A DNA stretch of 64,000 bases from NCBI GenBank assembly GCA_963678705.1, contig OY783216.1, forward strand, positions 8,680,001-8,744,000, given 5' to 3'. Position numbers and translations under genes: made by a program. Every line of letters begins with the position of its first letter. Position 1 is the stretch's first letter. This DNA comes from Panorpa germanica. Its lineage: Eukaryota > Arthropoda > Insecta > Mecoptera > Panorpidae. Of this stretch, positions 10,859 to 46,670 are shown in pieces. A model generated the notes under the pieces. It did not search any database and had not been told where the DNA came from. It was given only the letters and a program-made list of their open reading frames with translations.

Positions 10859-11677
10859 TCAAATTATAATTTCCTGGTGCCTCATCCAAGTTAAGAAACA
10901 ATTGCAGCACCGGAAGCAGTGCTTATAACACTTTCCGAAAGCGTCCTGCTCTGTGTCCTAAAAATATATATTTGTTAATAATGTAAAATAATAATTTGAC
11001 TAAGAAGAAGAATAAATACGTACTTCAAGTGGGTTCTGAATAATCCTAATTCTCCTTGGATCAAATTCACCGAGTAACATTATCTTCGCAGTGGAATCGC
11101 TGGGAGACAATCGGTTCAGATCATTGATATTGCTTTCATCCATACCAAATATAATACCAAATCGTGTAAAATCGATATCCTTTATCTAAAAATACAACAC
11201 TTCATATTCTCATTTCAAATCGAATTCTTTACGAATTATATATTATGTAAAATAGAAGTTATTTTCAGTGAAGAACGAAGTGTAGATCGTTTTAACGAGA
11301 AAATTTGTCTGTAGAAACGAAGTGTGGGTAAAGACAATTGTCTGCACCTTTCTCGCAGAATGCGTGTACTCAATTCCATGACGCCGCAAAACTTCCAACG
11401 TTTGGGAATGTGGGGTCATGCCAATAACCCCTGAACGTAGTGCTGCACTGTCAACAATCCAATTTATATGGTCACCCCATTTTTTAATTGCTTCTAGAAA
11501 AACTGCTTCAGCAATATTTGATCTACAAATATTACCTGAAATAGCAAAAAGGAAACGTGTCAACACACGTTCACAAATCAGTCCTTCTCTCAGACCCAGG
11601 CCTGCCTCCGCCATACCTGTGCACAACAGCACAGACTTACCCATAGATGTAAATAAGACACTTTTCCTTTGCAACAT
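10859..11677 (-). CDS. ACP1: ACP1/primo-type low-molecular-weight phosphatase, predicted catalytically dead
   Basis: Four exons join in frame: 11641-11677, 11348-11535, 11024-11185 and 10859-10957. Introns are 105, 162 and 66 nt, all GT-AG. The product is 161 residues, the usual family length (about 155-160). Family marks seen are the P-loop TSMGNICRS (residues 10-18), the conserved IAEAVF, HGIEYTHSARK, MDESNINDLNR (residues 90-100) and a Cys-rich C-terminal helix ending in CFRCCNCFL. In active enzymes the P-loop is C-x5-R with Cys12 as nucleophile and the acid is Asp129 in DPYY. Here the nucleophile position is Ser11 (codon TCT) and the acid motif reads QNPLE, with Asn126. Arg17 and Asp91 of the active site are kept. 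The frame is intact, so it is probably a real protein that binds but does not hydrolyse phosphotyrosine. That role is inference. The family assignment is firm, the exon ends are well supported, and inactivity is a prediction. Confidence 0.88.
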
Positions 11678-13317: not shown

Positions 13318-15013
13318 CTTCTTGATGAAAGAAGACTATAATCTTACTCGCTGTTCGGCCCGTCGCAAGACAACGAGTATGAGTTATGTATTTCTTTTTT
13401 ACGATTACTTTTATGCGATTTTTTTTAAATTCATAGACTTTCTTTTTCTAAAAATTTTTTTTTGATTTCTTTAAAAATTTTTGATGCAGTTATATTCGCT
13501 AGGATTTAAATTTAAGAACTGCTTCATTACATTTTAAATATCTACGCAATTCTGGCTTTTATGCGACCTTTTTTAAATTCATGGACTATTTTTTTCTAAA
13601 AATTTTTTTTGATTTCTTGAAATTTTTTGATGCAGTTATGTTCGCTAGGATTTAAATTAAAGAACTGCTTCATTACATTTTAAATATCTACGCGATTCTG
13701 GCTTTTATGCGACCTTTTTTAAATTCATGGACTATTTTTTTCTAAAAAATTTTTTTGATTTCTTGAAATTTTTTGATGCAGTAATGTTCGCTAGGATTTA
13801 AATTAAAGAACTGCTTCATTACATTTTAAATATCTACGCGATTCTGGCTTTTATGCGATCTTTTTTAAATTCATGGACTTTTTTTTTCTAAAAATTTTTT
13901 TTTGATTTCTTGAAATCTTTTGATGCAGTTATGTTCGCTAAGATTTAAATTAAAGAACTGCTTCATTACATTTTAAATATCTACGCGATTCTGGCTTTTA
14001 TGCGACCTTTTTTAAATTCATGGACTTTTTTTTTCTAAACATTTTTTTTTGATTTCTTGAAATTTTTTGATGCAGTTATGTTCGCTAGGATTTAAATTAA
14101 AGAACTGCTTCATTACATTTTAATTATCTCCGCGATTCTGGCTTTTATGCGACCTTTTTTAAATTCATGGACTTTTTTTCTATAATTTTTTTTTTTGATT
14201 TCTTGAAATTTTTTGATGCAGTTATGTTCGCTAAGATTTAAATTAGAGAACTGCTTCATTACATTTTAAATATCTACGCGATTCTGGCTTTTATGCGACC
14301 TTTTTTAAATTCATGGACTTTTTTTTCTAAACATTTTTTTTTTGATTTCTTGAAATTTTTTGATGCAGTTATGTTTGCTAGGATTTAAATTAAAGAACTG
14401 CTTCATTACATTTTAATTATCTCCGCGATTCTGGCTTTTATGCGACCTTTTTTAAATTCATGGACTTTTTTTTCTAAAAATTTTTTTTGGATTTCTTGAA
14501 ATTTTTTGATGCAGTTATGTTCGTTAGGCTTTAAATTAAAGAACTGCTTCATTACATTTTAATTATCTCCGCGATTCTGGCTTTTATGCGACCTTTTTTA
14601 AATTCATGGACTTTTTTTTCTTAAAATTTTTTTTGGATTTCTTGAAATTTTTTGATGCAGTTATGTTTGTTATGCTCTAAAATAAAAAACTGCATCATTA
14701 GATTTTAAATATCTACGTAGATACTCAAAAAATTGCATTGCTCTTAAAATCATAAAAGTGAACCTTTTCATCATTTTTAACAAGATTATAGTCTTCTTTC
14801 TATATGGAGATTTAATATAATTTTTTTTTTGGATTTCTTGAAATTTTTTGATGCAGTTATCTTCGCTAGGCTTTAAAATAAAAAACTGCATCATTAGATT
14901 TTAAATATCTACGCAGAAACTCAAAAAATTGCATTGCTCTTAAAATCATAAAAGTGAACCTTTTCATCATTTTTAACAAGATTATAGTCTTCTTTCTATA
15001 TGGAGATTTAATA
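13318..15013 (+). repeat. Left arm of large palindrome: ~147-bp tandem repeat array
   Basis: Nine units can be phased by TCATGGAC (first copy TCATAGAC) at 13431, 13579, 13725, 13871, 14018, 14165, 14311, 14459 and 14604, a period of 145-148 bp. Each unit has TTTTATGCGA, a T-rich tract, TTTGATGCAGTTATGTTCG and AGAACTGCTTCATTACATTT. After the last unit a different ~195-bp module is duplicated (about 14623-14819 and 14820-15013), ending each time in GATTATAGTCTTCTTTC. The outer end at 13318-13356 carries GAAAGAAGACTATAATCTTA, a version of the same motif inverted. No coding capacity. Confidence 0.9.
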
Positions 15014-15474: not shown

Positions 15475-16545
15475 ATCGCCATATAGAAAGAAGACTATAA
15501 TCTTGTTAAAAATGATGAAAAGGTTCACTTTTATGATTTTAAGAGCAATGCAATTTTTTGAGTATCTATGTAGATATTTAAAATCTAATGATGCAGTTTT
15601 TTATTTTAGAGCATAACGAACATAACTGCATCAAAAAAAATTAAGAAATCCAAAATAATTTTTTTTTTAAAAAATGTCCATGAATTTAAAAAAAGTCGCA
15701 TAAAAGTCAGAATTGCAAAGATAATTAAAATATAATGAAGCAGTTCTTTAATTTAAAGCCTAACGAACATAACTGCATCAAAAAATTTCAAGAAATACAA
15801 AAAAAATTATTAGAAAAAAAAGTCCATGAATTTAAAAAAGGTCGCATAAAAGCCAGAATCGCGGAGATAATTAATATGTAATGAAGCAGTTCTTTAATTT
15901 AAAGCCTAACGAACATAACTGCATCAAAAAATTTCAAGAAATCCAAAAAAAATGTTTAGAAAAAAAAGTCCATGAATTTAAAAAAGGTCGCATAAAAGCC
16001 AGAATCGCGGAGATAATTAAAATGTAATGAAGCAGTTCTTTAATTTATAGCCTAACGAACATAACTGCATCAAAAAAATTCAAGAAATCCAAAAAAAATT
16101 TTTAGAAAAAAAAGTCCATGAATTTAAAAAAGGTCGCACAAAAGCCAGAATCGCGGAGATAATTAAAATGTAATGAAGCGGTTCTTTAATTTAAAGCCTA
16201 ACGAACATAACTGCATCAAAAAATTTCAAGAAATCCAAAAAAAAAATTGGAAAGAAAAGTCCATGAATTTAAGAACTTAATAAAACGTAGACATCATTGC
16301 GCCTGACAGAGCGGCAACATTACTTACAAGCAAAATTTACATCACAAGAAAATCATGTATTTTGCTATTATTTTCTGACAATATTTACAGACTAAATGAA
16401 GGCGTAAGAAATATTACATTCTTATTCACCAATTAGCAAGTAAATTTAAACGTTTGTTCATAAATCATAAATTTGATAATATTTTCTTGATGAAAGAAGA
16501 CTATAATCTTGTTAAAAATGATGAAAAGGTTCACTTTTAGATTTA
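15475..16545 (-). repeat. Right arm of large palindrome: inverted ~146-bp tandem repeats
   Basis: The units of the left arm appear here reverse-complemented, phased by GTCCATGAATTT at 15677, 15822, 15968, 16113 and 16259 (period 145-146). The inner end carries GAAAGAAGACTATAATCTTG followed by TTAAAAATGATGAAAAGGTT at 15486-15525, and the same module is repeated at the outer end, 16494-16533. With five units this arm is shorter than the left arm with nine. A foreign stretch (about 16270-16485) separates the last unit from the outer motif. Confidence 0.9.
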
Positions 16546-44357: not shown

Positions 44358-44972
44358 TTAAATGAGACTTTCATTTCCTGCCGCCATACCTTCCTCATTC
44401 CCTTCCTCTTCCTGCAAAGGTTCAATCGCCTCCTCAGAAATTTCAGAAAGGTCTGAGTCCTCCTTTGGCTGTTGTGATTCATTCTCTTCCTCTGTTGCTT
44501 TCTTCTTGCTTGCAAAAAGAGTGATGTATTCACCAACAGCACTGTTGTACTCATCAATATCTCTCAGATACAATGCTGCAGCATCTGCGTTCAACGCATC
44601 GTAAGCATTTGGGTAGGACAGCAGATGCGGCAAGAATATATCAAAGATCACAGTTAGATCATATATTGGAGTCCAAGTATTTTGGATAACATCCAAGCAA
44701 ACAGCTCCAGAATCTTCATGGATATTAGGATGATAAATGGTATCAGTGAAGATAATGGAAGGAGGTTTGTAAGGATAATCCGACGGAATTAAAACCAATA
44801 CTTTCCAAATACCGGACTCGTAAACAGTTCCCTTGGGACCGTGAAATGTGACAATTATTTCTTCTTTAGAATCGGTAATTTCGACTTCGTGGTTGTTCGC
44901 AATTAACTTCAGGAGGTCTTTGTCGATACGGGAGATGCCTGAGCTGGTGGAAGAACCGTTCTTGGAACTCAT
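44358..44972 (-). CDS. UBE2H: UBE2H-type E2 ubiquitin-conjugating enzyme, intronless and diverged
   Basis: An uninterrupted 204-codon frame starts MSSKNGSS and ends AAGNESLI. E2 fold marks are present: YPYKPPSI (residues 66-73), the HPN tripeptide (81-83), the active-site SGAVCLDVI with Cys92, TWTPIYDL and the LLSYPNAYDALNADAAALY stretch that is typical of UBE2H (LLAYPNPIDPLNGDAAAMY in the animal enzyme). The acidic, Ser/Glu-rich C-terminal tail also fits UBE2H. All catalytic residues are intact, so it should load ubiquitin. UBE2H is normally multi-exon and very conserved in animals. Here there are no introns and roughly half the core residues differ, which points to a retrogene kept under weaker or different selection (inference). 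Its GC content is above that of the flanks. A bona fide multi-exon UBE2H should exist elsewhere in the genome. Confidence 0.93.
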   Translation of the reverse strand: MSSKNGSSTSSGISRIDKDLLKLIANNHEVEITDSKEEIIVTFHGPKGTVYESGIWKVLVLIPSDYPYKPPSIIFTDTIYHPNIHEDSGAVCLDVIQNTWTPIYDLTVIFDIFLPHLLSYPNAYDALNADAAALYLRDIDEYNSAVGEYITLFASKKKATEEENESQQPKEDSDLSEISEEAIEPLQEEEGNEEGMAAGNESLI

Positions 44973-46670
44973 GATTGATGAGGAACTGTCAGTAAGATGT
45001 TAACGCTATAATCAAAAAATCTCAGTAAATCAGGAGATGAAATGTACAGTGACGGAAGCGTAATAATTTTACTGTGGACTTAAGTTCGTTCTCTACTTTT
45101 CGCCATGACCGAATAAATGTGTTTCCAGAAAATTATTACAGAGCGCTAGATATAATATGACTATATTTACCCGATTACCTATATTTCTCTTTTTGTGACT
45201 AATTTGTTTCGTTAAAAGAATGTCTCGTTAAAACGACCGAGCGATTAATTTGGAATTCAAACGAAGGCATGACATCAAATGATTTCCTGGCTCACTCAAA
45301 ACTAAATTCCAAAAACCATTACCAGATAAATACTGCTATATATGATCCTTCAATAAGACCTATTACTTTAACGAACTTTTAACAAGAGGTGTTATTTTAA
45401 ATAACCAGAAGGAGGCAATATTTCCGTCGAAAGTGGTGATATTTTTATTTTAATCCAAAGTACAAGCTTTAAGGTTAGTAATGAAACTTAAAATATGCCA
45501 AATGGCCTAATACTATTCAAACGGGCGAATTAAAACAGATGCGGTTTTGGAGACAATGTTAGGCAATGTACAAAGCAAAACTGTGATGTAAAATTTAAGT
45601 AAACAATATAACTTAACGGAAATTTGATCACGCATTGAAATCACTTCAATCCCAAAAGAAAGTAAAATCGAAAAAAATAATTGTAAATTTGTAATTTACT
45701 TTCATTTAACGTCAACTTATTTGTGACGTTGATATAACGGTTTTTGTTGCTACCAAAGATTAGATTAAATTGTCTTGGTTCCATATGGTAGAGATTAATG
45801 GGGACCAAGGTGACTCCCACTGCGTAAATCAACTATTTTAAATAATGAATTATACTTAAATTATTTAATTAATAAATATAATACTTACTTTAACAATTTT
45901 TAATTTAATCAACGCGCAGATGCTGAGTTTCAAATCAAACTTTCTTGTAAAGCTTACACTAATTGTAAAATACAAGTAACATTTTCGAAATATTATCATA
46001 GTTGATGTTCACTTTACGGTGGATGAAACATGACTGATTAGGTGTAATCATTTTATCATCCCTTTTATATGATCTGTATGTATTTTAGATTATTCTGGAA
46101 AAATAGAGAGGGCGGGGATTTCCAAGGAAAATTCGTGCCTTGTAACGTGCATATGTTAAGACAGGGATGCAAATAGCAGCAGGTGTTTTATACGACGTAC
46201 CGTTACGAAACTGCAAGTATATTTTATATATAACATATAGAATATAACGACCGTTACATTCATACTCGTACGCCATGAAAAATTAAAAAATAGTTTTATC
46301 TGTATAAATAAAAATGCTGTTCGTCGGTAAACGCATCGCTTGAGAACGGCTGGACCGATTTCGCTACTTTTAAAAAGAAAATATTCATGATAATCTGAAT
46401 ATGGTTTTTAGGGAAAGAAAAATTGGAAAATTTGAAGGGAAAATTAAAGATTTCTAAAAGTTAAAGATTTTTAATCTAATCTCTACAAACACTTTTGACA
46501 AGCATCGAATAAAATTTGTACTAATAAAATCAAATAAGAATCGTGTAAGATTCATATGATTCTTAGAAAAATTGTTTGTAGAGATGTCGTTTGATTCCTG
46601 ATTGCCAAATTGTGAATCAAGGTAATAGTGACTGAAATTATTATGATAATACATTATTTTGTTGAAATAT
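44973..46670. other. Non-coding stretch, 5' flank of the UBE2H-like gene
   Basis: No gene is seen. At 46300-46440 a tail beginning CTGTATAAATAAAAATGCTG with GAACGGCTGGACCGATTTCG is the standard wording of RTE- or Helitron-type 3' sequences in insects; its ends are not defined. Confidence 0.45.

Follow-up and report, generated by a model that had tools for sequence, protein, structure and literature searches.

The window analysed here, a 64-kb stretch of DNA (contig C13:8680001-8744000 of a 464 Mb genome assembly), carries on its minus strand a four-exon gene of the LMW-PTP family (11677-10859) with a product of 161 amino acids (Table 1). All three introns have GT-AG borders and an in-frame TGA lies immediately 5' of the ATG. 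The product matches PF01451 over the whole profile (1-144 of 144; 112 bits, E 3.6e-32, cut-off 23.2), and its best PDB match is human ACP1 (1xww, E 3.3e-35). Two tandem repeat arrays lie upstream of the gene, one with a ~146-bp unit at 13408-14717 (8.9 copies) and the other at 15572-16272 (4.8 copies), whose unit looks like the reverse complement of the first. An uninterrupted 213-aa frame at 44358-44999, also on the minus strand, matches the ubiquitin-conjugating enzyme domain PF00179 at 114 bits; it resembles UBE2H-type genes and may be a retrocopy of one.

A search of the genome with PF01451 returned six matches belonging to three genes, the window gene and two others on contig C11, and all seven matches obtained with the window protein, among the best candidates scored, fell within the same three. 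The two paralogues on C11, P1 and P2, are normal-looking and provide the active-type ACP1 relatives that the preliminary description of the locus had suggested looking for, since both keep CX5R and the catalytic Asp: P1 (155 aa) reads FICLGNICRSP and RDPYY, and P2 (153 aa) FVCLGNSCRSI and RDPYF. P1, which is similar to fly Primo-1, is the closer of the two to the window protein (77/155 identical residues, compared with 64/151 for P2, 67/148 for the human protein and 54/148 for fly Primo-1). Its exons measure 37/188/162/81 nt, those of the window gene 37/188/162/99 nt and those of P2 43/176/162 nt. The identical lengths of exons 1 to 3 in P1 independently support the exon model of the window gene, as first proposed with its intact frame and splice sites, and indicate that the four-exon structure is most likely ancestral; together with the full-length PF01451 match, this common structure places the gene in the family by descent. 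In the same assembly, 19 weaker COX1 matches (17 of them over the cut-off) were found on contigs C1, C3, C5, C16, C21 and others, beside the mitochondrial contig C249; most contain TGA codons, as expected for nuclear copies of mitochondrial DNA. The mitochondrial contig itself has the tRNA order Ile-Gln-Met and a COX1 that reads with the invertebrate code. This gene order and code, with the similarity of P1 to Primo-1, indicate an insect, and the tRNA order argues against ditrysian Lepidoptera; the lepidopteran markers PF03260 and PF01723 gave no match, a result that does not by itself demonstrate their absence.

Table 1. Features of the window LMW-PTP gene (positions in the window; a slash marks the exon boundary)
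Feature	Positions	Strand	Description
Exon 1, default form (form A)	11641..11677	-	37 nt; MLQRKSVLFTSM/G; Ser11 (TCT) at the nucleophile position; same length and phase as P1 exon 1
Candidate exon-1 extension (form B)	11617..11640	-	24 nt in frame; GKSVLLCT/G, giving C-T-G-N-I-C-R; donor CAG/GTATGG from 11616
Intron 1 of form A	11536..11640	-	105 nt; 50% GC; without in-frame stop
Exon 2	11348..11535	-	188 nt; remaining P-loop GNICRS kept; Gly48 and Gln57 at the Trp49 and Arg58 positions
Exon 3	11024..11185	-	162 nt; GMDESN kept; QNPLE compared with RDPYY in P1 (Asn126, Leu128, Glu129)
Exon 4	10859..10957	-	99 nt including TGA; C-terminal CYKHCFRCCNCFL; ends HQEIII, six residues beyond P1

The spliced product contains the P-loop TSMGNICRS and the acid motif QNPLE, as had been read from the locus before, with Ser11 at the position of the nucleophilic Cys12 and Asn126 (AAC) at that of the general acid Asp129 of DPYY; the phosphate-binding Arg18 is present as Arg17 (AGA), and Asp91 (GAT) is likewise kept. 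PMC13407169 presents Cys12, Arg18 and Asp129 as an essential triad. Compared with the family, the window protein also has Gly in place of Trp49, Gln in place of Arg58, Leu in place of Tyr131 and Glu in place of Tyr132 (where P2 has Phe), four losses that are new with respect to the preliminary description. It shares with ACP1 and fly Primo-1 (PF01451; PDB 1xww, 7cuy) the whole-profile match, the Gly-Asn-Ile-Cys-Arg-Ser loop and the Asp92, Ser43 and His72 positions, and keeps Asn14, Cys16, Ser18 and Ser42. Residues 11 to 13, encoded by exon 1, are all changed, and the half of the P-loop encoded by exon 2 is untouched. The loss of both catalytic residues that had been claimed for this protein therefore holds for the Asp in every form, but for the Cys it depends on splicing, because an in-phase donor at 11616 would restore CX5R (see below).

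The window protein retains 36 of the 48 positions that are invariant in P1, P2, fly Primo-1 and the human protein, and loses C12, L13, W49, R58, A59, Q76, D86, Y87, D129, Y131, E139 and V146, a pattern that, at the level of sequence, fits a pseudophosphatase whose catalytic residues have gone and whose fold would be retained. As a control, each of the four comparison members was scored against the invariants of the other three, yielding 14/62 losses for fly, 13/61 for human, 12/60 for P2 and 3/51 for P1. On the same four sets the window protein loses 14/62, 18/61, 19/60 and 15/51, so that its total loss equals that of the fly protein, is somewhat greater than those of the human protein and P2 and is well above that of P1. 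What stands out is the location of the losses: six of the 12 fall in the active site, compared with 3 of the 42 in the comparison members, all three in P2 (Fisher p=0.002). A Fisher test on the 48 positions alone gives p=0.07, which weakens the case for a maintained pseudophosphatase; the list of active-site positions behind both tests is largely assumed.

Neutral decay was simulated at assumed rates, with one indel for every ten substitutions and with twelve splice bases that had to stay intact. The frame, splice sites and ATG survived in 1.6% of cases at 0.05 substitutions per nt and in 0.2% at 0.08, and the loss of six of 14 active-site residues had a probability of 0.3% and 2.8%, respectively. 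Multiplied by hand, the joint probability of an intact gene with such active-site losses is ~5e-5, or ~2e-4 with half the indel rate. At 0.274 substitutions per nt, close to the length that the branch takes when omega is fixed at 1, none of 4000 simulated runs remained intact. Since simulated decay that is long enough to produce these losses nearly always breaks the gene at these assumed rates, simple neutral decay is unlikely.

Codon models gave a less stable picture, because synonymous sites are saturated, and the branch omega of the window gene ranged from 0.14 to 0.80 according to the setting. In a first fit on 125 codons, with branch lengths of at most 20, omega was 0.35 and omega = 1 was not rejected; the same held for three uncapped settings (omega 0.32, 0.80 and 0.40; p 0.35, 0.90 and 0.50). 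Omega = 1 was rejected in a 151-codon fit with branch lengths capped at 7.4 (omega 0.16, p=0.006), in three capped settings (omega 0.20, 0.14 and 0.16; p 0.017, 0.003 and 0.006) and in 21 of 24 bootstraps, all under the capped setting only. A higher omega on the window gene than on the other branches was indicated by the uncapped fits (2dlnL 4.2 for the first fit; 3.2, 7.2 and 4.6 for the others) and not favoured by the capped ones (0.2 to 1.2). In relative-rate comparisons the window gene had more unique changes than P1 with fly (37:5), human (23:9) or P2 (26:6) as the outgroup, and more than P2 with fly (26:10), the difference from P2 with the human outgroup (25:18) not being significant. 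It also has the longest branch in a five-taxon tree (0.97, compared with 0.17 for P1), in which the supports are weak (51 and 61). The earlier view that the gene is maintained rather than decaying is thus supported in part, by the intact frame, the focus of the losses on the active site and the simulation; for dN/dS, the rejection of omega = 1 depends on the capping of branch lengths.

Reading past the default donor, the frame continues as G-K-S-V-L-L-C-T-G up to a second donor in the same phase, 24 nt inside intron 1. If this donor were used, the junction with exon 2 would read KSVLLCTG/NICRS, and the joined product, form B, would read KSVLLCTGNICRS, with CX5R intact. The preliminary description had named an alternative first exon supplying a Cys as one finding that would overturn its reading; a candidate of this kind does exist in the DNA at 11616. 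A phase-1 site of this type (two hydrophobic residues, Cys and any residue before the split Gly, followed by GT[AG][AT]) occurs only once on both strands of the window, and no other Cys-supplying first exon was found on the minus strand between 22000 and 11536. Similar sites arose in 13 of 20000 dinucleotide shuffles of intron 1 and, with any GT donor allowed in mononucleotide shuffles, in 490 (bare Cys), 31 (two preceding hydrophobic residues) or 5 (three) of 20000; these counts are not clean probabilities, as the motif had already been seen when the test was devised. The open frame through intron 1 itself carries little weight, since 21% of shuffles are also free of stops. Retention of the intron, which would give a 196-aa product, was discarded because its score (106.7 bits) falls below those of the spliced forms. 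With 50% GC the intron is richer than the window as a whole (31%); among 4260 tiles of the same length, 2.5% reach its level. A transposable-element origin for it was not supported, as a genome search that skipped very common words matched only its own copy.

It is conceivable, but on balance rather unlikely, that the two donors switch the nucleophile, the ancestral one giving the Ser of form A (161 aa) and the downstream one the CTGNICRS of form B, which would be 169 aa long or, starting at the second ATG, 158 aa. Besides the uniqueness of the site and its rarity in shuffled introns, this alternative can draw on the intact exon-2 half of the P-loop beside the three changed exon-1 positions, and on the Pfam scores of form B (113.4 and 113.7 bits, compared with 112.0 for form A), although these hardly tell the two forms apart. 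The predicted U1 duplex of the donor at 11616 (-8.2 kcal/mol) is better than that of the donor inferred for P2 (-7.0 kcal/mol), but weaker than those of the default donor (-10.3 kcal/mol) and of P1 (-10.6 kcal/mol). Further against a switch, intron 1 contains no Cys-supplying site in either P1 or P2, and the extension does not look like a copy of exon 1, given that 3973 of 5000 shuffles score equally well; its Gly-Lys is forced by the GTAAGT donor. Form B would moreover still lack Asp129, Tyr131, Tyr132 and Trp49, which are absent from either form. With a Cys, an Arg and a Cys12/Cys17-type pair but no general acid, it would be expected to catalyse very slowly, to serve as a covalent trap or to bind in a redox-sensitive manner. 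It seems doubtful to us that a single gene produces both a Ser pseudophosphatase and a Cys-containing, acid-less form, with splicing deciding between an inert phosphate loop and one capable of a long-lived covalent or redox-sensitive adduct; where form A is concerned, such a switch is compatible with the loss of catalysis that we favour. To our knowledge, splicing does not switch the catalytic Cys in the human ACP1 isoforms.

Expression of the window gene is not assured, given that the start context has T at -3, that an out-of-frame ATG 4 nt upstream opens a 14-codon frame overlapping the start (11681-11637, minus strand; its stop in unspliced sequence lies just past the default donor) and that the first AATAAA after the stop is 283 nt away, compared with 14 nt in P1 and 59 nt in P2. 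These features weigh against a maintained protein and, with the fast branch and the settings compatible with omega = 1, would suit a pseudogene that is not expressed, or was relaxed only recently, and has yet to lose its frame. Such a pseudogene is nonetheless improbable in our estimation, for the 161 codons, the start codon and the six splice sites are all intact, the losses are focused on the active site rather than spread, and the joint probability simulated with assumed rates is very low. An active phosphatase using Cys16 or some other residue could rely on the Arg17, Asn14, Ser18, Ser42, Asp91 and Cys16 still present, but the acid and both tyrosines are missing and we know of no role for the equivalent of Cys17 as a nucleophile in the LMW-PTP fold, which makes this explanation very hard to credit. 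Least credible of all is that the catalytic codons were misread or misassembled: the error at the TCT codon that the preliminary description had allowed for does not account for the sequence, as the three adjacent codons for TSM differ from those for ICL in P1 at several bases, and a change is also seen at the second site, which lies 345 nt further along the coding sequence.

The active-site focus of the losses, together with the near-certain breakage of the gene in simulated decay, makes a maintained pseudophosphatase the best reading: we consider it somewhat probable that the window gene is a third LMW-PTP paralogue of the ACP1/Primo class, evolving fast, which has lost catalysis while its scaffold stayed under selection. 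The unstable omega, the excess of changes over P1 and the weak expression signals temper this view. A duplication that kept the introns would have given rise to the third paralogue, and catalysis would then have been lost from a protein still under selection for its scaffold. With the ancestral donor, the product would be a pseudophosphatase in which GNICRS, Arg17 and Asp91 remain. Given how catalysis works in this family, we infer that form A is inactive, since Ser would be unable to form the phosphocysteine and Asn unable to protonate the leaving group, and we expect it to fold. Use of the donor 24 nt downstream could add a minor form in which the Cys is restored and the acid still absent. 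The kept GNICRS loop might bind an anion; the loss of Trp49, Arg58 and Tyr131/132 and the gain of Glu129 make simple phosphotyrosine trapping doubtful, so that partner binding or competition appears just as likely. The likeliest role would be a non-catalytic one, in which the protein binds an anion, a phosphoprotein or a partner and might, for instance, compete with the two active-type paralogues.

The laboratory C12S mutant of LMW-PTP is used as an inactive or dominant-negative form; the window gene carries the same nucleophile change naturally, with the acid and pocket residues altered too. A precedent for the change from Cys to Ser is MK-STYX, in which Ser replaces the essential Cys of HCX5R and the DUSP fold is said to be preserved, along with the ability to bind phosphorylated residues, STYX having Gly in place of the essential Cys (PMC8907265). 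These proteins belong to another PTP class and fold and are reported from hundreds of species, whereas the present analysis covered one genome. The pseudophosphatase classes covered by the excerpts consulted (DUSP/STYX, myotubularins and multidomain PTPs) are other than LMW-PTP, and in open-access literature represented mostly by titles and abstract openings we found no insect LMW-PTP pseudophosphatase, which is weak evidence of absence, the fly list of 8 pseudophosphatases (PMC12869072) having entered as a total rather than gene by gene. A mosquito sperm proteome lists two LMW-PTPs (PMC9934393), with no bearing on the window gene. Diversification of an LMW-PTP through alternative splicing is described for human ACP1, whose fast and slow isoforms arise from mutually exclusive exons (PMC3785452); in the window gene, the candidate is instead a second 5' splice site for exon 1. 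With two active-type paralogues in the same genome, a natural LMW-PTP carrying Ser and Asn would allow one to ask what the fold does without catalysis and, if the second donor is used, the gene would clearly exemplify the toggling of a catalytic nucleophile by splicing.
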